64,000 bases of DNA from Halopseudomonas xiamenensis (GTDB lineage: Bacteria; Pseudomonadota; Gammaproteobacteria; Pseudomonadales; Pseudomonadaceae): NCBI RefSeq assembly GCF_014219065.1, contig NZ_JACLGO010000015.1, positions 1-64,000 of the forward strand, read 5' to 3'. Position numbers and translations under genes: made by a program. Within the stretch, counting starts at the first letter, position 1. Each line of letters opens with the position of its first letter. This document shows, piece by piece, positions 9,343 to 31,706 of this stretch. Under the pieces are notes generated by a model, which ran no database searches, had not been told where the DNA came from, and was given only the letters and a program-made list of their open reading frames with translations.

Positions 9343-9363
9343 AACACTTTTTTGATTTGTGTA
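9343..9363 (-). promoter_or_regulatory. Element A site upstream of the amidohydrolase operon
   Basis: AACA-N13-TGTA on the plus strand, with the A/T-rich spacer starting CTTTTTTGAT. It lies 70-90 bases before the amidohydrolase start. Read on the minus strand it becomes TACA...GTGTTTAAGT, so a -10-like TTAAGT preceded by TGT abuts the site. Related sites lie at 19485, 22458, 24386, 31522 and 31686. Confidence 0.6.
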
Positions 9364-9437
9364 TATATAGAATTTTTGCGGGACTGGCAGCGGAGCCGGC
9401 CGGCTGCAGAAAAGGGGTAAGAATGGGAATCTGAACG

Positions 9438-9469
9438 AAAAAAAGGCCGCCAGCAGAGCTGGACGGCCT
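9438..9469 (-). terminator. Rho-independent terminator of the ditQ-like gene
   Basis: A GC-rich hairpin (AGGCCG-CCAGC paired with GCTGG-A-CGGCCT, one bulge, 9444-9469) followed on the minus strand by seven T residues (the A-run at 9438-9444). It lies 25 bases past the P450 stop and separates it from the amidohydrolase promoter. Confidence 0.85.
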
Positions 9470-9493
9470 GTTCAAGCCTCTAGAAAGAGAGCA

Positions 9494-10768
9494 TCAATCC
9501 CAGATAACGTGCAACTGATGCGGGCCGCGCAATTGCGCACCGGTGATCTCGGGGGCAGGCTTCAACGGGTCGAGCCGTATATTAGGCATCATGTCCAGCA
9601 CAGCATTGAGCGCGCAGTTGATTTCCGTCTTGGCCACGAACTGACCGATACACATATGGGGGCCGAAACCAAAACCGAACGAGGGACGCGGACGACGGTC
9701 AATATCAAACACGTCCGCATTCTCATAGACGTCTTCATCGCGGTTGGCGGAGCTGACGATGCAGGAGACCATCGCGCCCTTTGGAATCTTGACGCCACGA
9801 ATCTCGGTGTCCTCTGCGGCCTGGCGAACCTTGAACGTCGCTACTGGTTCATAGCGAATGGACTCATCGATGGCCTTGTTGACCAGGCTGCGATCATTGC
9901 GTACGCGCTCCAGCAACTCGGGATTCTCGAGCAACAACGTCATCAGGGTGCCAAACGTACGCGTGGTGGTCTCCCCGGCGGCCGGTAACAGTGAGCGCAC
10001 AAAGGTAGTAATTTCGTGATCATCCAACGAGCGGCCCTCATATTCAGCCTGGATGAGACGACTGATCAGATCATCGCCTGTACCACCCTCGGCGCGACGC
10101 TCGGCGACGACCAGCTTGATCGCGTCATACAGGGCACCCACGGCTTCCATCGCTGCCTTCTTGGCAGCCTGGGCCTTGGCCGGGTCTACCTGTGGCCCAG
10201 CCAGAATGGCCAGGGCCCAAGCGGCGTACTGTTTGATCTTCTCAGGTTGGTCGTTGGGGAAGCCTATGAGCGAATAAATCACCCTGATAGGAAAATACAG
10301 AGCGAAATCCATCAGATCCGCACTCTTCTGCGGAACCAGGGGTTTGATGAATTCTTCCCGGATGACGCCGTCTATGCGATCTGCTTTCCAGCGATTGACC
10401 GTGTCCGGCATGAACACTGGCTGCAAAAGGTTGCGCATGTTCCGGTGCTGATCGCCGTCCATTGCTGTAAGGATCAGTCCGTCGAAGAACGCACCCAGAC
10501 CTTCAGCGATAAACCCGCTGGTAAATTGCGAAGCGTCTCGCATTACATGCATGACGTCGTCATATTTGAACAGCGTGAAGCATGGGCGATTCGGATCCAC
10601 CCCTGCTATGGATGGCACCCCCAGCTGCTCCATGAAATTACCTTCCATGACGGGGTTGGTTTTCCGCATCTTCGCGTAAACGGCGTGAAGGTCGATATCA
10701 CTACCTTGATAATTGCTTGCCACATCGGCAAACACCTTCTCCAGCTCGCTTTTGGGCGCATTGGACAT
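9494..10768 (-). CDS. ditQ: Cytochrome P450, CYP226-like (DitQ-type)
   Basis: A 424-residue soluble bacterial P450. The heme-binding motif FGFGFGPHMCIGQF has its axial Cys at about 373, the I-helix oxygen groove is PAAGETTTRT, and the K-helix ExxR is in ESIRYEP. It closely resembles the second P450 of this window (50564-51841) throughout. In known dit clusters two CYP226-family P450s (DitQ and DitU) oxidise abietane acids, one preferring dehydroabietic acid and the other abietic acid. It is placed last in the ditK-Q-like gene order and ends at a strong terminator. Electrons probably come from the [2Fe-2S] ferredoxin and reductase at 36.4-38.0 kb. P450 identity is certain; the ditQ label rests on motif and order. 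Confidence 0.9.
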   Translation of the reverse strand: MSNAPKSELEKVFADVASNYQGSDIDLHAVYAKMRKTNPVMEGNFMEQLGVPSIAGVDPNRPCFTLFKYDDVMHVMRDASQFTSGFIAEGLGAFFDGLILTAMDGDQHRNMRNLLQPVFMPDTVNRWKADRIDGVIREEFIKPLVPQKSADLMDFALYFPIRVIYSLIGFPNDQPEKIKQYAAWALAILAGPQVDPAKAQAAKKAAMEAVGALYDAIKLVVAERRAEGGTGDDLISRLIQAEYEGRSLDDHEITTFVRSLLPAAGETTTRTFGTLMTLLLENPELLERVRNDRSLVNKAIDESIRYEPVATFKVRQAAEDTEIRGVKIPKGAMVSCIVSSANRDEDVYENADVFDIDRRPRPSFGFGFGPHMCIGQFVAKTEINCALNAVLDMMPNIRLDPLKPAPEITGAQLRGPHQLHVIWD

Positions 10769-10867
10769 GATCGTCTCCCTTTAATATTCTATTAATTTTG
10801 TCAGGCTAGCTACAGGGTCTGAAATTCGGTCGCTGACTAAAGCTTAAGCTCCGCAGCAGCGTAATTG

Positions 10868-10888
10868 AACCCTTTTAAATATTTTGAT
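10868..10888. promoter_or_regulatory. Degenerate element A site upstream of ditQ-like P450
   Basis: AACC-N13-TGAT with an A/T-rich spacer, in the intergenic region between the P450 start and the CMD-family gene. It matches the element-A spacing but differs at two half-site bases, so support is weak. Confidence 0.3.
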
Positions 10889-10937
10889 TAACTTCCATCC
10901 CCCCACACTACCACTTGGGATTGGCTCATTCCCATAA

Positions 10938-11441
10938 TCAATATGCCTGCTGGACATAGGTCATACGCCCGCCCGCCAGCATCAGAGCGCAATACATATT
11001 GAGCTCGGTAATCTGAGGCTCACTGAAATATGGTGCCAGCGCCACATAGTGCTTGTCGTCCAGCTCCATGTAGTCGCCGGCGAAAAGACCGGCAAATGTC
11101 AGGGCAGCCTGCTCGGCGGGAGTAAACCGATCACTGTCCGTCGCCAGGCAAGCGATATCCTCTTCGCTTACCTCCTCCGACTTTCGTGCCAGTTGGCAAA
11201 CTTGGCAGGTAGTGACGCTGGCGACCTTCAGCCGCACCAGCTCGCGCACACGCTCGCTCAACAGACTGTGGAAATGAAACTGTTCTAGCAACGCGAGCCA
11301 GCCTTGCGCAAGCGCTGGACGATGCGCCCATACCTGTACTGGCACGCTGGAGCTGAGCATTCCTGACTGCAGCCCCCGCTCCAGGGTGGCTGCCAGGCTA
11401 TCTGGTAAAGCCGACAGCGGAACGGGTGAAATTCGTGACAT
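10938..11441 (-). CDS. Carboxymuconolactone decarboxylase/AhpD-fold family protein
   Basis: A 167-residue protein. The ATG at 11441, with AGGTGG close upstream, was preferred to one 29 codons earlier that overlaps the thiolase gene. The CMD/AhpD signature is the helix RELVRLKVASVTTCQVCQLARK with a CxxC pair, in a protein of family-typical length. CMD-family proteins are decarboxylases, lactonases or CxxC peroxidase-like reductases. The CxxC favours the AhpD-like branch, but the function is open. It lies between the thiolase and the P450, the place where ditP would fall in the dit order as I recall it. Confidence 0.78.
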   Translation of the reverse strand: MSRISPVPLSALPDSLAATLERGLQSGMLSSSVPVQVWAHRPALAQGWLALLEQFHFHSLLSERVRELVRLKVASVTTCQVCQLARKSEEVSEEDIACLATDSDRFTPAEQAALTFAGLFAGDYMELDDKHYVALAPYFSEPQITELNMYCALMLAGGRMTYVQQAY

Positions 11442-11476
11442 AAACCACCTCGCGCCGACCCTGGTCGGCATACTTG

Positions 11477-12652
11477 TCAGACCAGGCGTTCGATTAGCGT
11501 AGCGGTTCCCATGCCACCAGCGCAGCATATCGCCTGCATGGCGTAGCGACCGTTACGACGTTCCAGCTCATTCAACATTGAAGTCATGATCCGTGCGCCA
11601 CTTGCACCCAGAGGGTGGCCAAGGGCAATGGCACCGCCATTTACATTCAGGCGATCTGCCGACACGCCTATTTCCCTGAGCCAGGCGATAGGTACGGATG
11701 CAAAGGCTTCGTTGATCTCGAACAGATCTACATCGTCGATCTTCAGATCGGTTTTGGCCAGAATTTTACGCGTAGCCTCAATGGGACCCGTGAGCATCAG
11801 CGTTGGATCCGCGCCCACCGTTACAGTCGCTCTGATCCGCGCCCGGGGCTTCAGGCCCAAACGGGACGCCGTCTCCGCGGACATCAGCAGCAGCGCAGCA
11901 GCACCATCAGAAATTTGCGACGAATTACCTGCCGTGACTCGCCCGTTCTCCGGACGGAAGCTGGTCTTCAGGCTAGCCAGCTTTTCAAGAGAGGTGTCGC
12001 GCCGAATAGTTTCATCGGCAGTAAGCAGCCCGGTGAAACCCTCATAGCCCTTCTCGCAGTATTCGCCTGCCGGTACTGGAACAATCTCTTGTTCGAAATA
12101 CCCAGCATCCGCAGCAACGGCCGCACGACGATGGCTTTCAAGAGCGAATGCGTCCAGCTCATCACGGCTGATCTGCCATTTTTCCGCCACGCGCTCCGCT
12201 GCCTCGCCCTGGGAGGTCAGCTCGTGTCGCTCCAGCGCCATCCAGCCGAACGCTTCGCCATGTATCTCGCGGTTGCTACCCATAGGCACCCGGCTCATGC
12301 TTTCCACTCCACCGGCAATCACGATCTCTGCAGCTCCGGCTGCAATGGCGCCCACTGCAGCATGTACCGCCGCTTCACCGGAGCCGCACTTGCGGTCCAG
12401 CGTCAGGCCCGGCACAGAAGCTGGCCAACCCGCGCCCAACAGGGCCGTGCGCGCGACGTTGGCCGACTGCTCTCCGATCTGCGTCACACAACCGAAGATG
12501 ACGTCATCAATATGCTCGGCGGAAAGCCCCGTGCGCTGCAACAGCTCATTGATGACCAACGAGCCCAGGTGGTCGGCACGGACGCCAGCTAGGCTGCCGC
12601 GAAAGCGGCCAACCGGCGTGCGTACTGCGTCGACAATGACGATATCATTCAT
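11477..12652 (-). CDS. ditO: Acetyl-CoA acyltransferase (thiolase)
   Basis: A 391-residue degradative thiolase. The nucleophilic Cys is in LDRKCGSGEAAVH (about residue 90), the His in GGAIALGHPLGASGAR, and the second Cys in AICCAGGMGTA. It cleaves a 3-ketoacyl-CoA to release acetyl-CoA or another short acyl-CoA. Its ATG overlaps the stop of the 3-hydroxyacyl-CoA dehydrogenase gene (ATGA), so the two steps are translationally coupled, as for ditN-ditO. Confidence 0.92.
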   Translation of the reverse strand: MNDIVIVDAVRTPVGRFRGSLAGVRADHLGSLVINELLQRTGLSAEHIDDVIFGCVTQIGEQSANVARTALLGAGWPASVPGLTLDRKCGSGEAAVHAAVGAIAAGAAEIVIAGGVESMSRVPMGSNREIHGEAFGWMALERHELTSQGEAAERVAEKWQISRDELDAFALESHRRAAVAADAGYFEQEIVPVPAGEYCEKGYEGFTGLLTADETIRRDTSLEKLASLKTSFRPENGRVTAGNSSQISDGAAALLLMSAETASRLGLKPRARIRATVTVGADPTLMLTGPIEATRKILAKTDLKIDDVDLFEINEAFASVPIAWLREIGVSADRLNVNGGAIALGHPLGASGARIMTSMLNELERRNGRYAMQAICCAGGMGTATLIERLV

Positions 12653-13554
12653 AACGCACTTCCTTTGAGCCCGGAACCGGGAACTCGATTGCCTTCATGG
12701 TACTGATATACGCCGTACCCGGTCTTGCGCCCCAGCCGTCCGGCAGCGACCATCTTGATGATCAGCGGGCAAGGCCGAAACTTCTCACCCAGCGTTTCAT
12801 GCAAGTAACGCAGTACGGACAGGCGCGTATCCCAGCCTGTGAGATCGCCCAGTTCGAGCGGACCCATAGGGTGATTGAAGCCCATACGGAGCGCAGTATC
12901 GATATCTTCGGCGGTAGCGGTGCCCTCCTGAAGCATATACATCGCCTCATTACCCAACAGCGCAGACATGCGACTGGTAGTCAGGCCGGGAGATTCGTTG
13001 ACGATGATTGACGTCTTGCCAATCGCATCGCAAAGATCCTTGACCCTCGCGACAGTTTCATCGCTGGTAGCCAGTCCGCGAACCAGCTCGACCAGCTTCA
13101 TCTTGTGCACCGGATTGAAAAAATGCATCCCTATGAAGCGCTCGGGAGCAGGAACCGATGCTGCAATTTCGGTGACACTCAGGGCCGACGTGTTACTGGC
13201 GATGATGGCGTTATCCAACATCAGACTGGCGGCCTGCATAACCACCGCCTTCTTGATTGCAAGCTGTTCGGAAACGGTCTCCACCAGCAGGTTGGCGCCT
13301 ACAGCTGCCTCGGACAAGTCTGCATTGACCGTCAGCCGATCCAGGGCAGCCCGCCCCGTCTCTTCACTGACCTTGCCCAACCGGACACCATCACCCAATA
13401 TTTTTTCAATACTTGCATAGGCTTTCTCGAGGGCAGCGGCATTGGTATCCACCAATACTGTCTCGAAACCTGAGCTCGCGAAGGCATGGGCAATACCGGT
13501 GCCCATCAGACCTGCGCCCACTACCACTACCTTGTTGCTTTTGTCAGCACCCAT
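12649..13554 (-). CDS. ditN: 3-hydroxyacyl-CoA dehydrogenase
   Basis: A 301-residue NAD-dependent 3-hydroxyacyl-CoA dehydrogenase. The dinucleotide motif is VVVVGAGLMGTGIAHAF, the catalytic His segment is GMHFFNPVHKMKLVELV, and the C-terminal domain carries NHPMGPLELGDLTGWD. The start at 13554 (AGAGG 9 bases upstream) replaces a longer frame that would overlap the FAH gene. It oxidises a 3-hydroxyacyl-CoA to the 3-keto form for the coupled thiolase. Gene order FAH-HAD-thiolase matches ditM-N-O by position. Confidence 0.92.
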   Translation of the reverse strand: MGADKSNKVVVVGAGLMGTGIAHAFASSGFETVLVDTNAAALEKAYASIEKILGDGVRLGKVSEETGRAALDRLTVNADLSEAAVGANLLVETVSEQLAIKKAVVMQAASLMLDNAIIASNTSALSVTEIAASVPAPERFIGMHFFNPVHKMKLVELVRGLATSDETVARVKDLCDAIGKTSIIVNESPGLTTSRMSALLGNEAMYMLQEGTATAEDIDTALRMGFNHPMGPLELGDLTGWDTRLSVLRYLHETLGEKFRPCPLIIKMVAAGRLGRKTGYGVYQYHEGNRVPGSGLKGSAL

Positions 13555-13567: not shown

Positions 13568-14419
13568 TTATACATTTTTTTCACTGACCACGTTGCGTAG
13601 CGTACCAATACCCTCGACGGAGGCTTCCACGACATCCCCTGGACTCAGGAAACGTCCGGTTCCCATGCCAACACCGGCAGGTGATCCGGTGAAGAGAATA
13701 TCTCCGCAGGCGAAACTCGACCGCGCATGCACGAAAGCAATCAGCTCGCCCACATCCCAGGTCATGTCGGCCGTTGTTCCGTCCTGACGTACTTCGCCGT
13801 TTACCGCCAGTGTCAGACGCAGCTTGGGCGAGCCCTGTGGAAACTCATCCTTGGTGACAATCCACGGCCCTACACCCGTGGTGCGATCCTGGCTTTTGGC
13901 AGAAAACAGATCCATGCCAATACCTTTAGGGCCGCTACGCTGCAGATCTCGCGCACTGACGTCATTGCCCACGGTATAGCCGAGCACACAAGCAAGCGGG
14001 TTCTGCAGATCGATCTGGCTGCTGCCGATCACCGCCACAAGCTCCACCTCATGATCCAGCTCCTTGGTGAGTGGTGGGTAACGGATTGGATCATTCGCGC
14101 CAATCAAGGCACCGTAGGCCTTGAGGAAAGCGACCGGCTGGACGGGTGCGTCAAGTCCGAAATCATCCTGCAGATGCGCAAGATAGTTGGCACCCGCCAC
14201 CACCACACGATTGGTCGGATCAACTGGTGGCAGGAGCACGATATCAGCCATCGTCACTGGCTTGGCAGCCAGTGACAATGCGCTGATCCCGGCACCACCG
14301 GCGACTCGGGGTGCCCATTCCTGAAAATCACCCAGGATCGGATTGACTTCGTCATGCTCGAGATCGACGACCGCCCAGAAGGGCTTGCCGCCGTTAAAAG
14401 AGCAGCGTGCCAGTTTCAT
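13568..14419 (-). CDS. Fumarylacetoacetate hydrolase-family protein (first of three)
   Basis: A 283-residue FAH-fold enzyme. The metal-site signature is present: KAYGALIGANDPIRYPP, DHEVELVAVIG (E-x-E type ligands), GYTVGNDVSARDLQ and the loop GDILFTGSPAGVGMGTG. Family members hydrolyse C-C bonds of diketones, decarboxylate, or isomerise or hydrate products of meta-cleavage. The ATG shares one base with the stop of the amidohydrolase gene (TGATG). By order it would be ditM. Substrate unknown; two more paralogues lie at 22583-23581 and 28587-29471. Confidence 0.87.
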   Translation of the reverse strand: MKLARCSFNGGKPFWAVVDLEHDEVNPILGDFQEWAPRVAGGAGISALSLAAKPVTMADIVLLPPVDPTNRVVVAGANYLAHLQDDFGLDAPVQPVAFLKAYGALIGANDPIRYPPLTKELDHEVELVAVIGSSQIDLQNPLACVLGYTVGNDVSARDLQRSGPKGIGMDLFSAKSQDRTTGVGPWIVTKDEFPQGSPKLRLTLAVNGEVRQDGTTADMTWDVGELIAFVHARSSFACGDILFTGSPAGVGMGTGRFLSPGDVVEASVEGIGTLRNVVSEKNV

Positions 14420-15525
14420 CAGGCACCTACCTTACCGGCTGATTTGGCGGGGTCTCCCACCTTGCCGACCTTTGCCGGATCCAGGTGCAGCAGCTCACAG
14501 GCATTCTTCCACCGGATGCGATCCATATCTTCCTGGGAAAGCTTCAGATCCGAGGTCAGGTCATGACGTACTGCATCACTGCCGCCAAAATTGGAACCGT
14601 AAAGCACCCGGTCAGCACCAATCACTTCCACCATTGCCTGGCGCATGGGCACCTCGTGCAATTCGACGTCAAAATAGAAGTTACGCAGATACTCCAGGAA
14701 AGGCTTCTTGTTATAGGACACGTCAAGGTTCGGGTTGGTCTGCGCCATCCGACCGAGCTGATAGGGTACATAACCGCCGCCGTGCGTAATGTAGACCTTC
14801 AGGTTCGGGAAGCGATCGAATACACCACCGTTGATCATGTACCAGAAACATTTGGTTTCGTCGTAGTTCATGCCGACGATCGCGGTTGTTTCGTAACGGT
14901 CGGTATTGGCTTCCTTGCCCCAGGTCACTGACTGGTTGTAGCCGTGCACAAACATGGGCACATCCAGGTCACACAGCGCCTCCCAGACGGGATCCATTTC
15001 CGGCGAATCGAACTCCAGTCCGCCGAAGTTGGAACCACCGGCTACCAGGCCTTTGGCGCCCAGCTCGGTGACCGCCCGACGAATCTCCTTGGCCGCCTCG
15101 ACGGGCACGTTCAACGGTGCATGCGCCCAGAACATAAGGCGATCAGGTGCTCCGGAGCAATACTTGGCCAGTGAGTCGTTCACCGTTCTGGCAAAGGGAA
15201 CGCCAAACTCGGGTTCAGCCCAGTACATGTAGCAGTGACTTGGCACGGAGATGACCTGGGCATTCTGACCAGCGGCGTCCATCCCGGCGAGGCGGTGCTG
15301 GGGGTCAGCCCATTTGGCCATGTACTCGGCTACCTGCAGCGTTTCGCCGCGGGCGTGGGCCTCGCGCAAGGCCTTTTTCCGTTCCGGCGCGCCCAGTGTC
15401 AGAATCCATTCGCCAACACGCAGCTTTATATCGCCATCAGACTGCGATTCAAAAGCCGGCCCCCAATGCGGGTGCTGGTCGTAGTATTCCGGGTGCGGCG
15501 CATGTGCATGAAGATCGATAAGCAT
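14419..15525 (-). CDS. Amidohydrolase family 2 protein (second in window)
   Basis: A 368-residue amidohydrolase-2 protein. The start at 15525 puts the HxH metal motif at the very N-terminus (MLIDLHAHAPHPEYYDQ), as usual for the ACMSD-like family, and discards 40 upstream residues lacking homology features; AGGGA precedes the ATG. Later segments DLDVPMFVHGYNQSV, YITHGGGYVPYQLGRM and RVLYGSNFGGSDAVRHD supply the remaining ligands. It heads the leftward operon with the FAH protein, HAD and thiolase. By order it would be ditL. A decarboxylase or C-C hydrolase role in ring degradation is an inference. Confidence 0.85.
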   Translation of the reverse strand: MLIDLHAHAPHPEYYDQHPHWGPAFESQSDGDIKLRVGEWILTLGAPERKKALREAHARGETLQVAEYMAKWADPQHRLAGMDAAGQNAQVISVPSHCYMYWAEPEFGVPFARTVNDSLAKYCSGAPDRLMFWAHAPLNVPVEAAKEIRRAVTELGAKGLVAGGSNFGGLEFDSPEMDPVWEALCDLDVPMFVHGYNQSVTWGKEANTDRYETTAIVGMNYDETKCFWYMINGGVFDRFPNLKVYITHGGGYVPYQLGRMAQTNPNLDVSYNKKPFLEYLRNFYFDVELHEVPMRQAMVEVIGADRVLYGSNFGGSDAVRHDLTSDLKLSQEDMDRIRWKNACELLHLDPAKVGKVGDPAKSAGKVGA

Positions 15526-15637
15526 GAGATAAATCCCTGTTCTGATTGTTCTGGGTGAAAGCGCGCAGGCGTTGAATATCTCAATACGCCTGGCTTGCAT
15601 GCGACAGCATAATACATATTGAGCATAATTCAAAAAT

Positions 15638-15962: not shown

Positions 15963-16673
15963 TCAGCGACGGGTTCGGGAGGTGGAACCCATGATCAATG
16001 AAGCGAAAAGTCTTTTCACCCGCACGGGCAACAGCCGCCGACCAGCTCTCTCCGGAACTAGCACCTCGCTCAGCACATAACGAATAATCATTTCGCAGAT
16101 CAACTCCCTGTCCAGCTTGACCCCAAGCCTCGCATCCCAGTCATCGAAGACGATATCCAGCGTATCCTGAAAACGAAGGATCGAATCATGAAAGATACGC
16201 CTGAAGAAACCCAGCGCATATTCCGGTGCCACAACCAGCAAACGCTGTGCCCGGCTTTGCTCCAGGTAGTCATCGATAAAGCTGATCAACGCATTGAGCC
16301 GCGCTTCAGGCTCCTCGACAGTGCTGATCGTATTGAGCAGAACCTGATGGAAATCATCCCGCTTGTGGCGGGAGAACGTATCAAGCAGATCCTCCTGGGA
16401 GGAAAAATAACGGTAGAAGGTACCGCGGGACACACCTGCCAGCTTGCACACCTCAAGAATGGAAATACGATCAGCACCAGAAAGCAGCACCACTTCTTCG
16501 GTGGCCCGCAAAATGCTGCTGATCGTTTCTTCAGATCGACGGTTGGGCTTCACTACCCGCGTTTTCCCCCCCGTCAGAACTGAATCCGGCCTACGCGCGG
16601 CACCCGAACGGCTTACTGACTCCCCCTTCCCCCTCATTACTTCAGTCTCTGCAGCTTCCTTATCAAGCATCAT
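15963..16673 (-). CDS. ditK: TetR-family transcriptional regulator
   Basis: A 236-residue regulator with a charged N-terminal extension of about 45 residues, then the TetR helix-turn-helix (ISILEVCKLAGVSRGTFYRYFSSQEDLLDTF, read as two adjacent helices) and a variable ligand-binding domain. AGGAGG lies just before two consecutive ATGs. It is divergent from the CoA ligase gene, with an element-B palindrome in between, the classic layout for a TetR repressor controlling itself and its neighbour. The ditK name is by order; the ligand could be a diterpenoid or its CoA ester (inference). Confidence 0.88.
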   Translation of the reverse strand: MMLDKEAAETEVMRGKGESVSRSGAARRPDSVLTGGKTRVVKPNRRSEETISSILRATEEVVLLSGADRISILEVCKLAGVSRGTFYRYFSSQEDLLDTFSRHKRDDFHQVLLNTISTVEEPEARLNALISFIDDYLEQSRAQRLLVVAPEYALGFFRRIFHDSILRFQDTLDIVFDDWDARLGVKLDRELICEMIIRYVLSEVLVPERAGRRLLPVRVKRLFASLIMGSTSRTRR

Positions 16674-16774: not shown

Positions 16775-16797
16775 AATATAGAATTAAATTCTGTATT
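16775..16797. promoter_or_regulatory. Element B palindrome between ditK and ditJ
   Basis: A 23-bp near-perfect palindrome (10 of 11 pairs match around a central A). Its 19-bp core TATAGAATTAAATTCTGTA is at 16777-16795, halfway between the divergent TetR and ligase genes. The AGAA...TTCT core recurs at 45055, 47769, 51859 and 53615. Confidence 0.7.
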
Positions 16798-18663: not shown

Positions 18664-19464
18664 TCAGTACTCCTTCACGGGTATATCGGCGGGTCTTGAG
18701 TTGTAGCCCGGCAGGTGTAGGCCGCCATCCACATGAATCGACTCTCCCGTCACGAACCGCGCCATCTCGGAAGCGAGGAAGGCTACTACCGGGCCAATAT
18801 CCGCTTCAGGCTCGCCGCTGCGCCCCAAGGGTCGCATGGATGCGGAGCGCTCTGCGAACCCCGGATTCTCGGCCGCCAGCTTGTGAAAGGTGGCACCCAT
18901 TGCGGTCGGTGCGATGGCGTTCACTCTGATATTGAAACGCCCCCACTCGGCAGCCGCGCTGCGCGTAAGACCGAGGATCGCCGACTTGGCGGTATTATAA
19001 TCGGCATGCAGCCAGGCACCGATCTCCGTATCGATGGAATAGAAATTTATGATGGCTCCACCACCCCGTTTGCGCATCAATGGCAACGCCGCGCGCATGG
19101 CCCACCAGGCTGCCCATACCGTCGTGCCCAACGTCTGCTCGAGCATCTCATCGGATTTATCTTCCATCAGCACATTGGGTGTGGGGGCAAAAGCGTTGTT
19201 GACCAGAATATCCAGCCCGCCAAAGTGCTCCTCCGCAGCCTGAACCGCATCAATTATATTCTGCTTATCCGAGACATCTGTCTTGAAGAACAAGGCCCGG
19301 CCACCCTGCGCGCGCAGATCGGAGACGACCGCTTCGCCCAGGGCCGGGTTCAGCTCGGCAACCACAACAGCCGCGCCTTGTTTGACAAAATAGCGCGCGA
19401 CGCCTTCCCCGATGCCTCCGCCGGCACCGGTGATCAGGGCAACCTTGTTCTCGAGCAGTCTCAT
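18664..19464 (-). CDS. ditI: Short-chain dehydrogenase/reductase
   Basis: A 266-residue classical SDR. The NAD-binding motif is TGAGGGIGEGVA, followed by VNNA (DILVNNAFAPTPN), a catalytic region with Ser in FYSIDTEIG and Tyr/Lys in YNTAKSAILG, and the C-terminal FVTGESIHVDGG. An Asp/Glu at the end of strand 2 (VAELNP) favours NAD. It would oxidise a ring alcohol or reduce a ketone. It has its own element-A site 21-41 bases before the start codon. The ditI label is by order between the ligase and dioxygenase genes. Confidence 0.85.
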   Translation of the reverse strand: MRLLENKVALITGAGGGIGEGVARYFVKQGAAVVVAELNPALGEAVVSDLRAQGGRALFFKTDVSDKQNIIDAVQAAEEHFGGLDILVNNAFAPTPNVLMEDKSDEMLEQTLGTTVWAAWWAMRAALPLMRKRGGGAIINFYSIDTEIGAWLHADYNTAKSAILGLTRSAAAEWGRFNIRVNAIAPTAMGATFHKLAAENPGFAERSASMRPLGRSGEPEADIGPVVAFLASEMARFVTGESIHVDGGLHLPGYNSRPADIPVKEY

Positions 19465-19484: not shown

Positions 19485-19505
19485 AACACTTTTTTTGTTA
19501 ATGTT
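19485..19505 (-). promoter_or_regulatory. Element A site upstream of ditI-like SDR
   Basis: AACA-N13-TGTT, spacer starting CTTTTTTTGTT, 21-41 bases before the SDR start codon. On the minus strand GTGTT is followed by TATTAA, a -10-like hexamer. Confidence 0.55.
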
Positions 19506-21000: not shown

Positions 21001-22404
21001 TTATTCGGCGTTCATCAGCTCGTTCCAGTACAGCCACCAATGCCACTGAGTATCGTCCTTGGTGAAGCCTTCGTTGACGATCCCCGGGCCAGGCCAGCCT
21101 TCAGGTTTGCCGGTTTCATATACAGCCTGATACTTCAGCGTCATGTGGCGACCCATAGCCCCCTTGGCGGCCAATGTCATATGCGGCCAGGTATCAGAGT
21201 CGTCCTGTTCAACCATGCCGGAGGTGCCGAAAAGTTGAATAGTCTGCTTCAACATCTTCTCACGCAATTCTTCCGGAGCGTCTTTCTCTGCGAAAATCCA
21301 GTTGCAGAACTCAAGCTTGTTGGGGCCGCGCGGGATATAGGTATGCATGGTCATGGAGCCGACCACTGACCCATCCGGCTGTGGAATATAGACAAATCCG
21401 AAGAGAATATTCGGGAACATGCCGCCCACCTGCGGAGGCATGGACGTCAGAACCTTGAGTTGATCCTCTGTCAGGTTGTTCGACAACTGCGCGACCATAT
21501 CTTTGGTCATGCCTGCAGGCGGCAGTGCATCGAGCTTCTGTTGAACGGTCAGATCGTCAGGCTCCAGGCCTGTCAGACGGCGGATTTTGCGCGCCAGGTC
21601 GATGCAGCGGAGCGCATGACCATGGGGAGAGCTGACTTCCACGCCATACATTTCTGGGGTCAGATCGGGCTCATCACTTTCCTCTTCTGCAGGCCCCTTC
21701 TTCGAATAGTTACCGACCTCTCCGAGCCAGCGGTGCAGAGTGAGCGTATGGAAACCATCCGCTGCAGACTGCTCACCGGCCGTTTTCCAGTTCGCATTGA
21801 CGATAAAACGCTGTGGTGGCCCGAGAACCTCCATGCCTTTGTCGCTGCGCAGGAAAAGCATGTCGTAGTACCACTTGGCATCACCAAGAAACTCATCAAA
21901 CGACGGACCATCGATATTCCAGGTGGCGAAGATCAGTCCACCATAAGAAACGGAGCGTGCTTTCTTCAGACCAAGCTCGGATTCTTCGAGTATCGTGCCG
22001 TGCATACACTCGCGCTTTACCGGTGAGCCGATAAAGTCACCGTTAGGACGGAAAGCCCAGCCGTGATAAATACATTTATGGATTGTGGCGTTACCGCAAT
22101 CAGTCAGCGCTACACGCATGCCCCGGTGTGGGCAGACGTTCAGAGTGACATGAATTTCACCGTTCTTGTCACGGGCAACGATAACGGAATCGGATCCCAT
22201 ATCACGTACAATGAAATCATTGGGCTCAGGAATCTCTGATTCGTGACCCAACATCACCCAGGTACGACCGAAGATCTTTTCCATCTCCAACTCGTAGATT
22301 TCAGGATCAGACAACACGCGCATCTGTACTTCGCGGGTTTCCGGGTAGATTAGCTCTGAAATCTTGGTGCCGTCAGAGAGCACCGGGCTGGAATTAGTGA
22401 GCAT
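21001..22404 (-). CDS. ditA1: Ring-hydroxylating dioxygenase large (alpha) subunit
   Basis: A 467-residue Rieske non-heme iron oxygenase. The Rieske cluster ligands are C91-P-H93 and C111-x2-H114; the mononuclear iron ligands are H219 and H224 in DGFHTLTLH, with the bridging D216. The likely third carboxylate is in EQDDSDTW near the C-terminus. The ATG at 22404 (GGAGG 6 bases upstream) was preferred to a TTG four codons earlier. In the dit pathway DitA1A2A3 dihydroxylates 7-oxodehydroabietic acid at C-11/C-12. Context here (ditA2 beside it, 3Fe-4S-type ferredoxin, extradiol dioxygenase) supports that role. Element A lies 54-74 bases upstream. Confidence 0.92.
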   Translation of the reverse strand: MLTNSSPVLSDGTKISELIYPETREVQMRVLSDPEIYELEMEKIFGRTWVMLGHESEIPEPNDFIVRDMGSDSVIVARDKNGEIHVTLNVCPHRGMRVALTDCGNATIHKCIYHGWAFRPNGDFIGSPVKRECMHGTILEESELGLKKARSVSYGGLIFATWNIDGPSFDEFLGDAKWYYDMLFLRSDKGMEVLGPPQRFIVNANWKTAGEQSAADGFHTLTLHRWLGEVGNYSKKGPAEEESDEPDLTPEMYGVEVSSPHGHALRCIDLARKIRRLTGLEPDDLTVQQKLDALPPAGMTKDMVAQLSNNLTEDQLKVLTSMPPQVGGMFPNILFGFVYIPQPDGSVVGSMTMHTYIPRGPNKLEFCNWIFAEKDAPEELREKMLKQTIQLFGTSGMVEQDDSDTWPHMTLAAKGAMGRHMTLKYQAVYETGKPEGWPGPGIVNEGFTKDDTQWHWWLYWNELMNAE

Positions 22405-26048: not shown

Positions 26049-26843
26049 TTAGAACAGCACATCCTGCAATTCATTGCACAGACCGCAAAGCGCCTTGCCG
26101 AGCTCGCTGATGCCATCCTCGTCTCGCTGGCCACGGAACATGACCGCCGACACAGTGTAATCGATCGTCCTGGCCGGCGAGTATACCGGCGCGGCTACCG
26201 CCAGAATGCCAATTGAAAAATGGCCATCGTCAATTGCCCATCCGCGCTCGGCGGCGTCTGCCACCTGTTGTCGATAGGTGGCATAGGACAATTGCCCTCC
26301 CCAGCGAATTTTTTCAAACATTTCGCGTGGCTGCTCAGCATCCAGATCCAGCTCAGACGCATACAAACGACCACTCGCACCCATCAGGATGGGCACCCGC
26401 TGCCCTTCACTCATATTGATACTGACATCCGTAGGGCAGGTTGCGGAACTGACGATAACACTCCTGTCACTTCCCATCCGACGCCACAGCGTGACAGTCA
26501 CTTTTGAGTCGGCTGCGAAGCTTTCCAGCAACGGCTTGGCCCGCTGCACCTTTTGCCCCTGGGTCACGAATTGCTCGACCAGACGGGCCAAGCCAAACCC
26601 CGCAGAATAGCGTTTAGAGATTGGGCTGAACTCGACCATGTCTTCGGCCACCAGCGTTCTGAGGATATTGAAGCAAGTGCTCGGGTTGATATCGAGCTTC
26701 CTGGCGATATCCACGGAGCGCGCCGGAGCGCCGGCCTGGCTCAGGAAGCGGAGTATGCGAACGGCATTGACCACCGGTTTAACAGTTACCAGGGACGATT
26801 TCGCCATATTTCTGTCACTGTCGCGTGTCACTTCAGCATCCAT
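26049..26843 (-). CDS. ditR: IclR-family transcriptional regulator
   Basis: A 264-residue IclR-type regulator: an N-terminal winged helix-turn-helix (PVVNAVRILRFLSQAGAPA then VDIARKLDINPSTCFNILRTL) and a C-terminal effector domain (GQRVPILMGASGRLYAS, AERGWAIDDGHFSIGILAVAAPVY). The longer frame begins with TTG; the ATG at 26843 was chosen. In P. abietaniphila DitR is an IclR-type protein needed for induction of the ditA3 operon. The position between ditE and ditF on the minus strand is the same here. Two palindromes precede the gene (26889 and 26917), pointing to autoregulation. It is the leading candidate for binding element A. Confidence 0.9.
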   Translation of the reverse strand: MDAEVTRDSDRNMAKSSLVTVKPVVNAVRILRFLSQAGAPARSVDIARKLDINPSTCFNILRTLVAEDMVEFSPISKRYSAGFGLARLVEQFVTQGQKVQRAKPLLESFAADSKVTVTLWRRMGSDRSVIVSSATCPTDVSINMSEGQRVPILMGASGRLYASELDLDAEQPREMFEKIRWGGQLSYATYRQQVADAAERGWAIDDGHFSIGILAVAAPVYSPARTIDYTVSAVMFRGQRDEDGISELGKALCGLCNELQDVLF

Positions 26844-26888
26844 TTTCAAAGTTTCGCTTCTATGATTGGGGAGGTATATTGATGATGC

Positions 26889-26901: not shown

Positions 26902-26916
26902 ATATATAATATTCTC

Positions 26917-26938
26917 TATCAAGAATAGAATTTTGATA
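26917..26938. promoter_or_regulatory. Inverted repeat upstream of ditR
   Basis: TATCAA and TTGATA are separated by 10 bases that include AGAATAGAATTTT, a partial match to the element-B core, about 74-95 bases before the ditR ATG and just beyond the ditE stop. ATTCT precedes it, as at 45047 and 47761. Confidence 0.4.
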
Positions 26939-26948: not shown

Positions 26949-28541
26949 TCAGCGCCAAATTGCTTCTACATCGGCCTGATAAATATAGCGCTTGGTTGCC
27001 GTGCCCGCGTCAACGAGGTAATGCTTGAGCGCCGCCTCCAGCGCTTGATCCGAGTGGGTAACCCTGGCTCGCTGGCGAAGATAATCCAACCAGGACTCCA
27101 CGATAAAGCGCTCAACGAAACGTTCCGGGTCGGCCAGATCGCGATACAGCCGCCAATTTCGCGCCCCGTTTCGGCGTCTTGCCTTACCTACAGCGTAGGC
27201 AGCCCGGATGAACTCCGTCTGGTTTTCTGAGCCAGCCCGATAGCAGATTTCAACCGATACCGGCCCATCAGAATGCGATACTTCCCCAGCAATCAGCAGC
27301 TTGTCAGTCTGTGAAACACTCCTGTAATCGGCTTCGCTACCGAGGACGAAAATACCATTACGCGTAAGCAGCAATCCCAGAACGATGGCCGCAGCCGATA
27401 TCAACAAGCTGCCGGTGGTTCCCAGATGTTCAGCCAGGAACCCCCAAACTGCGCCGCCCAGCGCCATGGCGCCCATGTACATAAGTAAATACACCGAGGC
27501 GACTCGCGCCCGAACCCAGTCAGCCGCGCAGGTCTGGATGATAGTCGCAACGGTCGCATTCACCGCCATCCAGGCAATCCCTGCGATCACCAACAGCAGC
27601 CAGACCAGCCATGCCGATTCCAGTAACGCCGCAGCAGCGGTCACCAGCGCGAAGACGAGCGCGCCCACAACCACCAGATTTCTGAGCGGGAAGTGCCTAT
27701 AGAAACGAGTCAGATTGACCGCGGCAATCACCGCGCCTGCGCCCAGCGCGCCCATCAGCATGCCATAACCATCCGCCTCCATACCCAGCCGGTCTCTGGC
27801 AATCAGCGGCAGCAAAGCCCATAACGCGCTGGCGCAACTGGTAAACACGAAGACCTGTTTCAGCGAACTGGTGAGCCGCACGGAGTGGCGGATATAGCGC
27901 AGCCCGCTGCGCATACCGCCTACGAAGGTTTCAGGCGGCAGCACCTCAGGCAGCCGATGGGCCCGCCACAGCAACAGAAAGAGCATTACCGACAGAAAAC
28001 ACAGGACGACCAACGAGAACATGGACGCCGGGCCGGCCAATGCGATAAGCAAACCGGCCAGCGCTGGGCCTACCGCACGCGCCACGTTGGTCGAAATAGC
28101 ATTCAACGCTACGGCAGCCGGGACGATATCACGCGGGATCAAGGTTAACGTCACGGCCATCCAGGCGGACATGCTCAAAGCGCTCCCCGTCCCCAGAACG
28201 AAGGTCAGTATCAGCAATGACCAGACATTGAGCGCGCCGATCAGGCTCATGACCAACAGCACGGCCGCTGCCGTCAGCATCAGTGCTTGTGTGAACAGTA
28301 GCCAGTACTTCCGGCTCACCAGATCCGCAATGACGCCACCCGGCAGACCGAAGAGAAATACCGGGAGCGTCATGGCTGTCTGGATCAGCGATACCATCCA
28401 CGCTGATTCGGTCAGACCCGCCATGATCCACGCTGCGCCGACGGTATGCATCCAGATGGCGAGATTGACGACGGCGCCAGCACCCCAGAACCAACGGAAC
28501 TGCGGATGCGTCAGCGGAAACCAGGTGGCCTGTTGATTCAT
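26949..28541 (-). CDS. ditE: MFS transporter of the MFS_3 (EntS-like) type with C-terminal extension
   Basis: A 530-residue permease. About twelve hydrophobic segments span residues 20-400, beginning FRWFWGAGAVVNLAIWMHTVGAAWIM. The cytoplasmic loop motif DLVSRKYWLL lies between helices 2 and 3. Residues about 415-530 form a soluble alpha/beta extension (VSVEICYRAG...RFVERFIVESWLDYLRQRARVTHSDQ) characteristic of MFS_3 (PF05977). It sits between the FAH gene (45 bases) and ditR, the place of the dit permease. Import of diterpenoid or export of a toxic intermediate are both possible; direction cannot be read from sequence. Confidence 0.87.
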   Translation of the reverse strand: MNQQATWFPLTHPQFRWFWGAGAVVNLAIWMHTVGAAWIMAGLTESAWMVSLIQTAMTLPVFLFGLPGGVIADLVSRKYWLLFTQALMLTAAAVLLVMSLIGALNVWSLLILTFVLGTGSALSMSAWMAVTLTLIPRDIVPAAVALNAISTNVARAVGPALAGLLIALAGPASMFSLVVLCFLSVMLFLLLWRAHRLPEVLPPETFVGGMRSGLRYIRHSVRLTSSLKQVFVFTSCASALWALLPLIARDRLGMEADGYGMLMGALGAGAVIAAVNLTRFYRHFPLRNLVVVGALVFALVTAAAALLESAWLVWLLLVIAGIAWMAVNATVATIIQTCAADWVRARVASVYLLMYMGAMALGGAVWGFLAEHLGTTGSLLISAAAIVLGLLLTRNGIFVLGSEADYRSVSQTDKLLIAGEVSHSDGPVSVEICYRAGSENQTEFIRAAYAVGKARRRNGARNWRLYRDLADPERFVERFIVESWLDYLRQRARVTHSDQALEAALKHYLVDAGTATKRYIYQADVEAIWR

Positions 28542-28586
28542 ATTTCGCTTTTTTCTCTCGTAGCAAACACCGGCGACGTCACCACG

Positions 28587-29471
28587 TTATGGCGTCGGAA
28601 ACCCCAGTCGCCCTGCGCGTCTGGAGCTGGTCAGTTTTCGCCGGTGGCCGACCCGGTTGCGCATCAGGCCGATGCCGTCAATGGATGCTTCGACCAGATC
28701 GTCCGGCTGCAGGAACCGACCCGTCTCCAACCCCACCCCATGTGTGGAACCGGTCAGCACCACATCCCCTGGACGAAGCGCTATGCGTGCGTCCAGGTAA
28801 TTGAGCAACTCATCCAGAGGAAAAATCATCTCCCGCGTATTATCTTGCTGCCGCAGCTCGCCATTCACCCGCAGCTGCATGTCCAGCTCAGGCTGACCAC
28901 CACCACCGAACTCATCAAGCGTACACACCCAAGGCCCGATCGGGCTTGTAGCGTCCATGCCTTTCTGTGTGAAAAGATCCAGCCGTCCCAGTGCCCTGCC
29001 GGCGTCCCGCGCACTGACATCATTTCCGATCGTGTAGCCCATCAGACATGTCGTGGCATGTTCTGCATCGTCCAGGGGCGCACCGACAACAGCAACCAGC
29101 TCGATTTCATAATCCAGCTCGCTTGTCATCGCTGGATAGGAAATCACTCCGTCAGGATCAACGATTGCGGAATCGGGTTTCATATAGGCGAGAGGATGAG
29201 GAGGGGCGGAACTACCCAGGCGAGTCAGGTGCGATAAATAATTAAGCCCGACGCCGAAGATACGGGCACCGGGCTCGATGGGGGCTATGAGGCGAAATCT
29301 ATCTGGCTCAAGCGCTGTCGGCGACAGGTCGAGGGCCCCGATATCTCCCCTGTTGACGCTGCCGGCCCAACGGGAGAACGGGGCATTTATGCGCTGACCA
29401 AAACCTGTATCAGAATGCAACAGAACCCAGTACCGCTCGCCCTTCGCATCTTCTACTCTAGCCAGTCGCAC
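28587..29471 (-). CDS. ditD: Fumarylacetoacetate hydrolase-family protein (third of three)
   Basis: A 294-residue FAH-fold enzyme with a GTG start two bases after the ditC stop; AAGAAGG is 7 bases upstream, inside the end of ditC. Motifs: FGVGLNYLSHLTR, YMKPDSAIVDPDG, LDYEIELVAVVGAP, GYTIGNDVSARDAG and GDVVLTGSTHGVGLETG. Directly downstream of the extradiol dioxygenase, it most likely processes the meta-cleavage product (hydrolysis, decarboxylation or isomerisation). The C-terminus carries a basic extension (HRRKLTSSRRAGRLG) of unknown meaning. Name by order. Confidence 0.86.
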   Translation of the reverse strand: MRLARVEDAKGERYWVLLHSDTGFGQRINAPFSRWAGSVNRGDIGALDLSPTALEPDRFRLIAPIEPGARIFGVGLNYLSHLTRLGSSAPPHPLAYMKPDSAIVDPDGVISYPAMTSELDYEIELVAVVGAPLDDAEHATTCLMGYTIGNDVSARDAGRALGRLDLFTQKGMDATSPIGPWVCTLDEFGGGGQPELDMQLRVNGELRQQDNTREMIFPLDELLNYLDARIALRPGDVVLTGSTHGVGLETGRFLQPDDLVEASIDGIGLMRNRVGHRRKLTSSRRAGRLGFPTP

Positions 29472-29473
29472 CT

Positions 29474-30415
29474 CTAACCCTTCTTGGCCTTGAATTCCGG
29501 ATCGCCAACCTCTTCTGGCGTTTTAACGCTAGGCCCCAGAATCGGGCCAACCAGCTCGTGGCCCCACACGCTCATTTTCTCTGGATTCAGCTCGAACCCA
29601 TCGTCATGCCAGGGTTCACTTTCGGCTATACATTCGAAAGCGAAGCCTGAAGGATTGAAGTGGTAGAAGGAAATATGTGGATCCTGGGAATGCTGACCCA
29701 GCGTCATCATCATCTGCAGCTCGCGCTTCTTCACGATATCGTAGGTCTCGCCCACGTCGCGCAAGCTGCCAACAAACAGACCGACGTGTTGAATCCCCAT
29801 ACGGCCAGGAGCGTGCCCATAGGCGATATCATGGCTGGTGAAGGTATTCAGCCTGGAGCGGAAGAACCCAGTCTTACCCTTGCCAGCACCCGAGCCATAC
29901 CAATGGAAGCCCATGATATTTATAAGGAAGTCTTCCAACTCTGGTGGAAACTCGGATGTCATCAGCACGACATGGCCCAACCCTCTTCTGCCAGCAAGAT
30001 AGCCGCCATGGCGACGTCCTGGCACAAAGGAATCAGGTAGCCACTTCTGCCCGTAGAACAGTTCATGCCGGAAGCCCACCGGGTCAAAGAAGCGGATCAG
30101 CTCCTTGACGCCGCGCTTCTCGCACAGCTCGGCGTCGCCCACGGTAAAGTCCACGCCGGCATCGGTAAACTTCCGGCAGGCTGCTTTGAACTCCATGCGC
30201 CCTTTGGCTTCCCAACCGAGATAGGCCAGTCGATCAACTTTGCCAGGATGAAAGGCGAGACGGTGGCGGCGATCGTCCATACGGAAATACAACGAATCCG
30301 GATCGCCTTCCGGATTCTGACCTATCGCAAAGCCCATTACCGCCGGACCATAGTCGCGCCAGGCATCAAGGTCAGTGGCTTCAAAGCCCATGTAACCCAG
30401 TCCAATAATATCCAT
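29474..30415 (-). CDS. ditC: Extradiol ring-cleavage dioxygenase (type I, VOC fold)
   Basis: A 313-residue two-domain type I extradiol dioxygenase. The Fe(II) ligands are H148 (GLGHVVL), H210 (GIQHVGL) and E261 (FAFECIAE); second-sphere residues H195 and the SFYHFNPSG loop (H243, Y251 region) are present. GAGGAGG lies 5 bases before the ATG. It cleaves a catechol next to its hydroxyls. In the dit pathway the substrate is the diol from DitA/DitB, 7-oxo-11,12-dihydroxydehydroabietate. Flanked by ditB-like (36 bases) and ditD-like (2 bases) genes in one leftward operon. Confidence 0.92.
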   Translation of the reverse strand: MDIIGLGYMGFEATDLDAWRDYGPAVMGFAIGQNPEGDPDSLYFRMDDRRHRLAFHPGKVDRLAYLGWEAKGRMEFKAACRKFTDAGVDFTVGDAELCEKRGVKELIRFFDPVGFRHELFYGQKWLPDSFVPGRRHGGYLAGRRGLGHVVLMTSEFPPELEDFLINIMGFHWYGSGAGKGKTGFFRSRLNTFTSHDIAYGHAPGRMGIQHVGLFVGSLRDVGETYDIVKKRELQMMMTLGQHSQDPHISFYHFNPSGFAFECIAESEPWHDDGFELNPEKMSVWGHELVGPILGPSVKTPEEVGDPEFKAKKG

Positions 30416-30451
30416 CTGTTCCTCCTCGTTCTGCCAGGGACGGGTGGCTGG

Positions 30452-31210
30452 CTATATAGCCAGAAGTCCACCATCAATGACGATATCCGACCCCGTAATG
30501 AATGACGCCTCGTCCGACGCCACGAATACGGCCATCGAAACGACTTCTTCCGGCTCCCCCGGGCGATCCATCAGCACTCCGTCAAGCAGCGCCGCTCGCG
30601 CTACCGGGTTCTCCATGAACGCTGCCGTGCCTGGCGTAGCAATGAAACCGGGGCTCAGGCTCACTGCGCGGATACCTACCGGTGCGCCCTCCACTGCCAG
30701 CTGGCGGGTGAAAGAAACCACTGCGCCCTTGGCGGCGGAATGAGCAGAAATACCGGCCACCTTGGATCCACCCCACGCAGCAGTGGAGGACACGTTGATG
30801 ATCACGCCCTTTTGTTCAGCCAGATGGTTCCACGCGTATTTGGTAGTGTAAAACAGCAGATCCACTTCATTGCGAATGGTAAAGTTCCAATCTTCAATGG
30901 ACATGTCCTGGACAGGAGCAAAGCGGGCAGCGGAAGCGTTGTTGTACAGAATGTCGATCTTCCCACACTCGGCCACTGCGGCCTCCACCCAGGCCTTGGC
31001 CTGTTCGTGGTCGCCAAGGTCCACCGGAGCGCTACCGTACAGGGTGAAACCTTCCTCTGAAAGCAGATCGGCGGTGATCTGATGCTCGGCGGCATTGGTA
31101 TCACAACCCACCACCAGGGCTCCCTCACGCGCAAAACGCAGCGCCGCAACTCTGCCCTGCCCTCCACCAGTACCCGTGATCAGAGCAACCTTACCCTTTA
31201 AACGTCCCAT
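30452..31210 (-). CDS. ditB: SDR, cis-dihydrodiol dehydrogenase candidate with His for Tyr
   Basis: A 252-residue SDR. TGTGGGQG binds the dinucleotide, and YNNAS replaces NNAG. Ser141/142 (NVSSTAAWGG) and Lys161 are conserved, but the catalytic Tyr is replaced by His157 (SAHSAAKGAV). The codon is CAT, so this is not a frame error. The C-terminal FITGSDIVIDGGLLAI is normal. It lies between ditA3 and ditC, the place of the ditB dehydrogenase that should rearomatise the cis-diol made by DitA. The His variant is shared by some uncharacterised SDRs, so activity is plausible but needs proof. Confidence 0.85.
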   Translation of the reverse strand: MGRLKGKVALITGTGGGQGRVAALRFAREGALVVGCDTNAAEHQITADLLSEEGFTLYGSAPVDLGDHEQAKAWVEAAVAECGKIDILYNNASAARFAPVQDMSIEDWNFTIRNEVDLLFYTTKYAWNHLAEQKGVIINVSSTAAWGGSKVAGISAHSAAKGAVVSFTRQLAVEGAPVGIRAVSLSPGFIATPGTAAFMENPVARAALLDGVLMDRPGEPEEVVSMAVFVASDEASFITGSDIVIDGGLLAI

Positions 31211-31255
31211 GAAATCTACCTCGCAACGACCATGACGGATGACCGGGCTTGCCGG

Positions 31256-31477
31256 TTATTCTTCAATCTTTACCAACCAGAGTGCTTCGGCTGGGCAAGC
31301 TGCAGCGCCTTCACGGGCGGCTTCCTCCAGTTCCGGCGCAATCCGGTCGTCGTCGAAATAAACCAGACCATTGTCGTCAAGCTTGTAGACTTCGGGGCAG
31401 ATTGAGGCACACAGACCATAACCGCAGCAGCGACCACGATCAGCAACAGCACGGAAAACAAACTTATCTGAACTCAT
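31256..31477 (-). CDS. ditA3: Single-cluster [3Fe-4S]/[4Fe-4S] ferredoxin
   Basis: A 73-residue ferredoxin. Cluster motif: C17-x2-Y20-x2-C23-x3-C27-P and the distal C61-P. The second Cys of the 4Fe-4S pattern is Tyr20, which favours a [3Fe-4S] cluster. AGAGG precedes the ATG. It carries electrons to the DitA1A2 oxygenase, unusual because most Rieske dioxygenases use [2Fe-2S] ferredoxins. It heads the ditA3-B-C-D-E operon, 46 bases before ditB, with an element-A site 45-65 bases upstream. No cognate reductase is adjacent. Confidence 0.92.
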   Translation of the reverse strand: MSSDKFVFRAVADRGRCCGYGLCASICPEVYKLDDNGLVYFDDDRIAPELEEAAREGAAACPAEALWLVKIEE

Positions 31478-31521
31478 ACCTTTATCCTCTTTATTCGTCA
31501 GGCTCAGCCAGGGACATAATG

Positions 31522-31542
31522 AACATAAAATTCATTTTTGTA
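31522..31542 (-). promoter_or_regulatory. Element A site upstream of ditA3
   Basis: AACA-N13-TGTA with spacer TAAAATTCATTTT, 45-65 bases before the ferredoxin start. On the minus strand TGTTCATTAT provides a -10-like sequence next to the site. Confidence 0.58.
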
Positions 31543-31685
31543 AATTTTTAGTTAGCTAATAGTCGCCCATTTCACTAACAAAGAGGCATTCCAGCGGACC
31601 GCTACGGTTATGCCAACCAATAACCCCTTTAAAATCAGCCATTAAGCCAAATCCACTCAACATCCCTGACGACATACGCAATAAG

Positions 31686-31706
31686 CACAAAAACAAATAA
31701 AATGTT
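31686..31706 (+). promoter_or_regulatory. Second element A site near ditA3, inverted
   Basis: AACA-N13-TGTG read on the minus strand (plus strand CACA...TGTT), facing away from ditA3. No plus-strand gene follows until 35134, so it may be a relic or an auxiliary operator 150 bases from the ditA3 site. Confidence 0.4.

Follow-up and report, generated by a model that had tools for sequence, protein, structure and literature searches.

The dit genes serve the breakdown of conifer resin acids, and a cluster of them lies in the stretch analysed here, positions 1 to 64,000 of contig NZ_JACLGO010000015.1 of Halopseudomonas xiamenensis, which we call the window. Several promoters of this cluster share an element, motif A or dit box, a dyad of 19 base pairs (bp) of the form ACA-N13-TGT with A/T-rich inner arms, lying over the -35/-10 region. 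A first-pass annotation of the same DNA had written this element as AACA, 13 bases, then TGTA or TGTT, and had proposed a single regulon whose operator overlaps the promoter, with the IclR-type protein DitR as its natural regulator. The copies found in the window are the following, with scores from the position matrices described below.

9343..9363, no strand: motif A before amidohydrolase 1 (7966-9273, - strand); exact pattern match, 30.0 bits, the best of the window
10868..10888, no strand: possibly decayed motif A before P450a (9494-10768, - strand); nothing above 9 bits
15622..15642, no strand: weak motif A before amidohydrolase 2 (14419-15525, - strand); 9.8 and 12.5 bits with two matrices
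19485..19505, no strand: motif A before the ditI-like SDR gene (18664-19464, - strand); exact match, 29.1 bits
22458..22478, no strand: motif A before ditA1 (21001-22404, - strand); exact match, 26.7 bits
24386..24406, no strand: motif A in the divergent promoter region of ditG and the OB-fold (ChsH2-like) gene; exact match, 24.0 bits
31522..31542, no strand: weak motif A before the ditA3 ferredoxin gene (31256-31477, - strand); exact match, about 12.1-12.6 bits
31686..31706, no strand: second, weaker, inverted motif A before ditA3; reads AACA-N13-TGTG, 5.8-6.0 bits

Motif A sites of the window

The five sites at 9343, 19485, 22458, 24386 and 31522 follow AACA-N13-TGTA/TGTT exactly, as announced, and the distances to the start codons amount to 20 (ditI), 42 (ditA3), 53 (ditA1), 69 (amidohydrolase) and 74 (ditG) bases. 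The inverted site at 31686 retains ACA-N13-TGT but lacks the final A/T, and a CTTTTTT start, described as frequent, is present in three of the six sites. Two weaker versions had also been listed: that at 15622 does exist as a weak site, while no site near 10868 reaches 9 bits. With a matrix that holds three Halopseudomonas sites, among them the window's own ditA1 site, the site at 31686 scored 11.5 bits, a value that is not independent of the window. The two weak sites of the ditA3 promoter lie 164 bases apart, and ditA3 of Pseudomonas abietaniphila is likewise preceded by a pair, of 14.8 and 22.4 bits and 156 bases apart. In the latter species amidohydrolase 2 also has an upstream site, at a distance of 147 bases (94 bases for its counterpart in the window), and the P450 gene has another at 90 bases (100 bases in the window). 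Because P. abietaniphila carries like sites at these three promoters, the weak sites of the window may be diverged members of the motif A set. Beyond the 9343..31706 span, a motif-A-like site of about 15 bits (560-584, - strand) precedes an SDR gene (622-1464). Beside the ditA3 promoter, an open reading frame (31721-32128, - strand) aligns with Abhydrolase_10 over its C-terminal part alone (profile positions 317-426 of 429) and looks like a gene remnant.

Enrichment of motif A at dit genes

Eight matches to AACA-N13-TGTA/T were counted on both strands of the window, the site at 19485 being counted twice; shuffling leads one to expect 2.18, and eight matches were reached in 2 of 100 shuffled windows. 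When A/T-rich ACA-Nn-TGT was searched with variable spacing, n = 13 gave six occurrences and every other n between 6 and 23 gave 0 to 2. The bare pattern is loose, as AACA-N13-TGTA matched the 4.28-Mb genome 32 times (16 per strand) compared to 17 for a reversed control, and enrichment therefore needed another demonstration. Position matrices were used for this. The best 80 of 133 ditA1 loci were kept, and the main matrix was built on 41 distinct ditA1-promoter sites outside Halopseudomonas, drawn from 60 of these 80 loci; the DitA1 protein of the window is 100% identical to that of H. bauzanensis. A second matrix, to which three Halopseudomonas sites including the ditA1 site of the window were added, served for the scan of extended dit regions in eleven other genomes, and the 41 outside sites alone were used in the column-shuffle control, the promoter-by-promoter counts and the dyad analysis of 126 sites.

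The matrix from outside Halopseudomonas ranked 9343, 19485, 22458 and 24386 as the top four sites of the 64-kb window, with 24.0 to 30.0 bits, compared to a mean of 9.7 and a maximum of 20.4 bits for the best score in each of 20 simulated windows. Scanning the whole genome with the 41-site model, for which 150 of 313 first-look candidates were scored, returned only these same four sites at E<=10, with 24386 as the best match (E=0.015) and 9343 at E=0.027. The motif is thus not scattered over intergenic DNA, a genome-wide check that the first-pass annotation had itself called for. Across 17 genomes, 13 of which contributed ditA1 sites to the training set, 46 of 48 matches at E<=5 share a contig with ditR, TetR1 or ditA1 at a distance of at most 60 kb, as judged from coordinates. 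Each of the 12 extended dit regions, window included, held between 1 and 10 sites above 15 bits; column-shuffled matrices gave means of 0.01 to 1.41 (largest count 6) and the mirrored matrix 0 to 2.

A dyad lying over the promoter

Of 391 distinct regions upstream of dit genes (those of ditA1 among them), 228 have the spacing of 13 bases, and each spacing of 6-12 or 14-23 occurs in 0 to 38; with a strict pattern the same regions gave 135 for spacing 13 and 0 to 5 for the others. The 126 distinct sites from promoters other than ditA1, 46 of them supplied by ditG, have a consensus of about TGtACATAAtTtAAAAAAGTGTcttATATt, which is symmetric around its centre save for one pair of positions. At ditI the matrix fitted the orientation of the gene in 23 of 48 distinct sites and the opposite one in 25, and the Pelomonas site is a perfect palindrome apart from the central base. 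In most ditA1 loci the series begins about 60-94 bases before the gene, with a TGTACA-like half, 13 bases, TGTC/T and then a -10-like TATATT. A -35-like hexamer shares bases with the left half, and a -10-like one, an A/T-rich TTATATT or TTATTT following TGTC/T, adjoins the right half. The symmetry of the columns, together with the free orientation at ditI, therefore identifies a dyad operator over the promoter. We conclude that motif A is a putative dyad operator of the dit catabolic promoters, defined by its form, its conservation, its place over the promoter and its specificity for the cluster.

Conservation of motif A in related clusters

Motif A precedes dit genes in Pseudomonas, Stutzerimonas, Burkholderiales, Aromatoleum and marine gammaproteobacteria. 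In the extended regions it stands before amidohydrolases 1 and 2, ditI, ditA1, the divergent ditG/OB-fold region, the ditA3/SDR operon, CMD and P450 genes, though not at each of these promoters in each genome. A site of at least 15 bits lies within 250 bp upstream of ditA1 in 66 of 80 loci, 60 of which had served to train the matrix. The amidohydrolase 1 promoter has a site in P. abietaniphila, LB400, Aromatoleum, Spongiibacter, Pseudomaricurvus and others as well. Amidohydrolase 2 is preceded by one in nine of the ten other regions that hold the gene (10.9-26.2 bits); in Acidovorax the best-matching copy of this gene has only 4 bits and the site sits before a 47% paralog. The P450a promoter scores 17-18 bits in P. 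abietaniphila, Colwellia and Acidovorax. Comparison with related clusters thus found the motif at the same promoters, though not at every promoter of each cluster, and together with the independent matrix and the genome scan it strongly supports the proposal of a single regulon whose operator lies over the promoter.

Genome scans of two bacteria in which DitR was not found, and of Aestuariicella with its 29% match, gave the same picture: all matches fell inside the dit cluster in Pseudomaricurvus (5/5) and Aestuariicella (3/3, one without gene assignment), and on the dit contig in Spongiibacter (5/5, two without gene assignment). The 41-site model found no match at E<=5 in a sphingomonad genome (G017). 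Two of three sphingomonads have the palindrome ACAGAGATGGCATATCTGT before ditA1, with 8 of 9 positions symmetric in a regular-expression search, and the third has a less symmetric one (6 of 9). Separately, in three loci of Halopseudomonas and related bacteria (L004, L005 and L066) the ditA1 box is absent from its usual position, and some 60 bases upstream of that position there is a palindrome, ACAGAT-N7-ATCTGT, whose outer spacing is the same.

Regulators of the cluster and a second palindrome

The regulatory genes of the window and the second palindrome, motif B, are placed as follows.

15963..16673, - strand: TetR1; TetR_N at 39.7 bits (cut-off 24), proposed reader of motif A
16780..16792, no strand: motif B (AGAAT-N3-ATTCT) in the divergent region between TetR1 and the CoA (coenzyme A) ligase gene; one of three perfect copies in the genome
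16850..18481, + strand: CoA ligase (dit ORF1-like)
26049..26849, - strand: ditR, IclR type with HTH_IclR and IclR_C; proposed reader of motif B
26911..26926, no strand: motif B (ATTCT-N6-AGAAT) before ditR; one of two perfect copies in the genome
51860..51872, no strand: motif B (AGAAT-N3-ATTCT) just before P450b (50564-51841, - strand); perfect, one of three in the genome

Searches for TetR1 found it in all 15 genomes, and of the cluster regulators compared it alone was present in every genome searched for it. Its recognition helix SRGTFYRYF is invariant in 14 aligned sequences (Pseudomaricurvus is not among them); three sphingomonads read ARGTLYRYF, and their ditA1 box is changed too. The predicted fold is all-helical and of the TetR type, with 11 helices and a mean pLDDT of 73.9, and the ten best PDB matches are all TetR proteins (TMq 0.54-0.60). 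As these matches point only to TetR proteins in general, no ligand class is claimed. LB400 and Aromatoleum each have two TetR1 copies near dit genes. TetR2 (40818-41519) was found in 6 of 14 genomes and was missing from 8. The gene of TetR3 lies just right of the window (67076-67687) and recurs beside several dit clusters; it was found in 9 of 13 genomes and was missing from 4. Neither the window nor the P. abietaniphila region gave a match to a LysR gene that stands near some clusters. The first-pass annotation had named the two TetR proteins only as partners of DitR in proposed binding assays; they are the better candidates, 15963-16673 with its 15/15 more so than 40818-41519 with 6/14.

DitR was found in 17 of 17 genomes of a first set, and its apparent lack in Burkholderiales was an artefact of a 10-kb locus limit. 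In that comparison of loci, the ditA2 and last SDR queries contained 10 and 15 stops, being out of frame, and their rows were left out. In a second set of 11 genomes it was present at >=46% identity in seven, and at 41% in Colwellia. Genome searches at E<=1e-20 gave no DitR ortholog in Pseudomaricurvus and Spongiibacter, the best match in Aestuariicella was only 29% identical and on another contig, and the dit regions of these three held no IclR/DitR-like match at E<=0.01. All four clusters, Colwellia included, still carry motif A. In the three whose dit regions gave no such match, it stands before amidohydrolase, OB-fold, ditI, CMD and CoA-ligase genes, although not at all these promoters in each. 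An operator that depends on DitR should be confined to DitR-bearing genomes, and motif A is not; since it persists where DitR was not found, DitR cannot be its sole reader.

Motif B, by contrast, tracks DitR: it occurs with DitR and at the promoter of ditR itself, and is absent without it, apart from a few exceptions. In the genome of the window AGAAT-N3-ATTCT occurs three times, twice in the window, and ATTCT-N6-AGAAT twice, once before ditR. Counting either form within one mismatch, motif B lies before the gene at 63 of 64 CoA-ligase loci (54 perfect, 9 with one mismatch) and at 52 of 56 ditR loci (41 perfect, 11 with one mismatch), while a motif A of at least 15 bits precedes ditR in none of the 56. 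In the 200 bp upstream of other genes it is rare, with one shuffle per locus as control (in brackets): 6/80 (1) for ditA1, 3/70 (1) for amidohydrolase 2, 3/65 (1) for OB-fold, 2/61 (0) for ditG, 1/79 (0) for ditI and 0/61 (0) for SDR. The dit regions of Aestuariicella, Pseudomaricurvus and Spongiibacter contain no perfect copy, and in these and Colwellia the CoA-ligase promoter has motif A in place of B (16-26 bits). As to the exceptions, motif B is missing before ditR in three sphingomonad loci and in locus L072; the sphingomonads have it at other dit genes, the only copy in the region of Azohydromonas, which does have DitR, carries one mismatch, and in Colwellia a perfect copy (B2) stands before another gene. 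Some motif A site above 9 bits occurs upstream of the CoA ligase in 27 of 64 loci. A motif-A-like stretch facing TetR1 in many Pseudomonas loci, whose spacing is often 11 and not 13, was not counted.

Discussion

TetR1 is probably the reader of motif A, as suggested by exclusion of other regulators and by co-occurrence. A TetR1 homodimer would bind the dyad and block RNA polymerase until a diterpenoid, or the CoA thioester of one, brought about its release, which would lead to joint induction of the operons; repression is the most likely mode from the position of the motif, and such an inducer the most likely one from the pathway context. DitR would act through motif B, most likely its operator in view of their co-occurrence, at the ditR and TetR/CoA-ligase promoters. 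We give this model as a whole, built from comparison of sequences, a probability of about 0.65.

Several observations weigh against this model. The strongest is that DitR was reportedly described by Martin and Mohn in 2000 as an inducer-dependent activator of ditA3, which would fit DitR acting on motif A, since the ditA3 promoter carries A sites, although a one-mismatch motif B site is also present in the ditA3/permease gap of P. abietaniphila. Aromatoleum has DitR, yet carries motif A and not B at the CoA ligase, with B at ditR, and 5 of 64 CoA-ligase upstream regions score at least 15 bits for A besides having B. In the 250 bp before ditA1, 14 of 80 loci lack an A site that reaches 15 bits, and in Colwellia five of eight genome matches lie off the dit contig (three on it). 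The TetR1 of Pseudomaricurvus is only 49-51% identical, its helix ends in RYY instead of RYF, and its gene has a TGA at the N-terminal edge, with 194 aligned columns open. Many TetR proteins control their own genes, and the promoter of TetR1 in the window is without motif A (-2 bits). Finally, no genome with dit genes and without TetR1 was found among those searched, and the comparison covered regulators encoded near the cluster, the search for further shared regulators covering one genome (G021).

Other readings of motif A were weighed against the same data. Chance matches of a loose pattern in A/T-rich intergenic DNA could be suspected from the 32 genome matches of the bare sequence against 17 for its control, but the independent matrix ranking, the genome scan and the spacing profile refute this, and we regard it as practically negligible. 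A conserved sigma-70 promoter (TTGACA or TGTACA, 17-18 bp, TATATT) with no separate operator would account for a left half overlapping a -35-like hexamer and a right half ending at a -10-like one. It is nevertheless very unlikely: from group to group the -10 register moves by one base while the ACA-N13-TGT spacing stays fixed, the ditI sites fit the matrix in both orientations (23 and 25 sites), near-perfect palindromes exist, and the window genome has no other match at E<=10 among the 150 candidates scored.

Who reads the motif is a separate question. DitR could be the main reader, with another protein having taken over the sites in DitR-less lineages; its presence in every genome of one set and in 7 of 11 of the other, as well as the reported activation of ditA3, would agree with this. 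That orthologous promoters keep motif A in genomes where searches found no DitR, and that ditR itself is preceded by B with no strong A, makes this improbable, and the first-pass assignment of motif A to DitR is not borne out. An off-cluster regulator, or TetR2, TetR3 or LysR in some lineages, is an unlikely reader too. Such a protein could have escaped a comparison that took in regulators near dit genes and links TetR1 to the motif by co-occurrence, but TetR2 and TetR3 are missing from several genomes with motif A, and the genome matches concentrate at dit genes, unlike those of a global regulator.

In a tentative history, to which we give somewhat less than even odds, a TetR master repressor that predates DitR would act on the A box across beta- and gammaproteobacteria and, in diverged form, in sphingomonads, with DitR joining later and the CoA-ligase/TetR operator switching from A to B. 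DitR would then govern the entry step and the repressor gene, and not the core pathway. If so, an operator swap could be read in living genomes, with Aromatoleum, which has A before the CoA ligase and B before ditR, as an intermediate, and the change from A to B would be a clear regulatory rewiring of one promoter. More immediately, for the degradation of abietane diterpenoids the analysis provides an exact putative operator and names a candidate repressor; the control of this pathway is, to our knowledge, known only through DitR. The regulon becomes definable from genome sequence, with two amidohydrolases, the CoA ligase and P450s as suggested members, and the finding may supply a part for a resin-acid biosensor. 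We found no published description of an operator corresponding to motif A or B in the open-licence literature searched.

The closest known system is the regulon of the IclR-type DitR in P. abietaniphila BKME-9, reportedly described by Martin and Mohn in 2000, which has the same gene cluster and orthologous genes, ditR included, and in which ditA1 and ditA3 are co-induced. Our reading differs from it in that motif A is also kept without a DitR ortholog and that the presence of DitR goes with another palindrome. Operators of the IclR family, for example those of PcaR and PcaU, are palindromes near the gene of the regulator, and motif B before ditR resembles them in this arrangement. For motif A, the likeness is to the KstR/FadR-type TetR repressors of lipid and steroid catabolism. 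TetR1 resembles these in fold, KstR and FadR chains being among its fold matches. In sequence, it is mainly the N-terminal half of TetR1 that is similar to TetR proteins of solved structure, and the protein reaches no NCBIfam cut-off. The 19-bp ACA-N13-TGT box presumably differs from the KstR and FadR operators, and what the systems share is a dyad lying over the promoter and serving many operons of one cluster.

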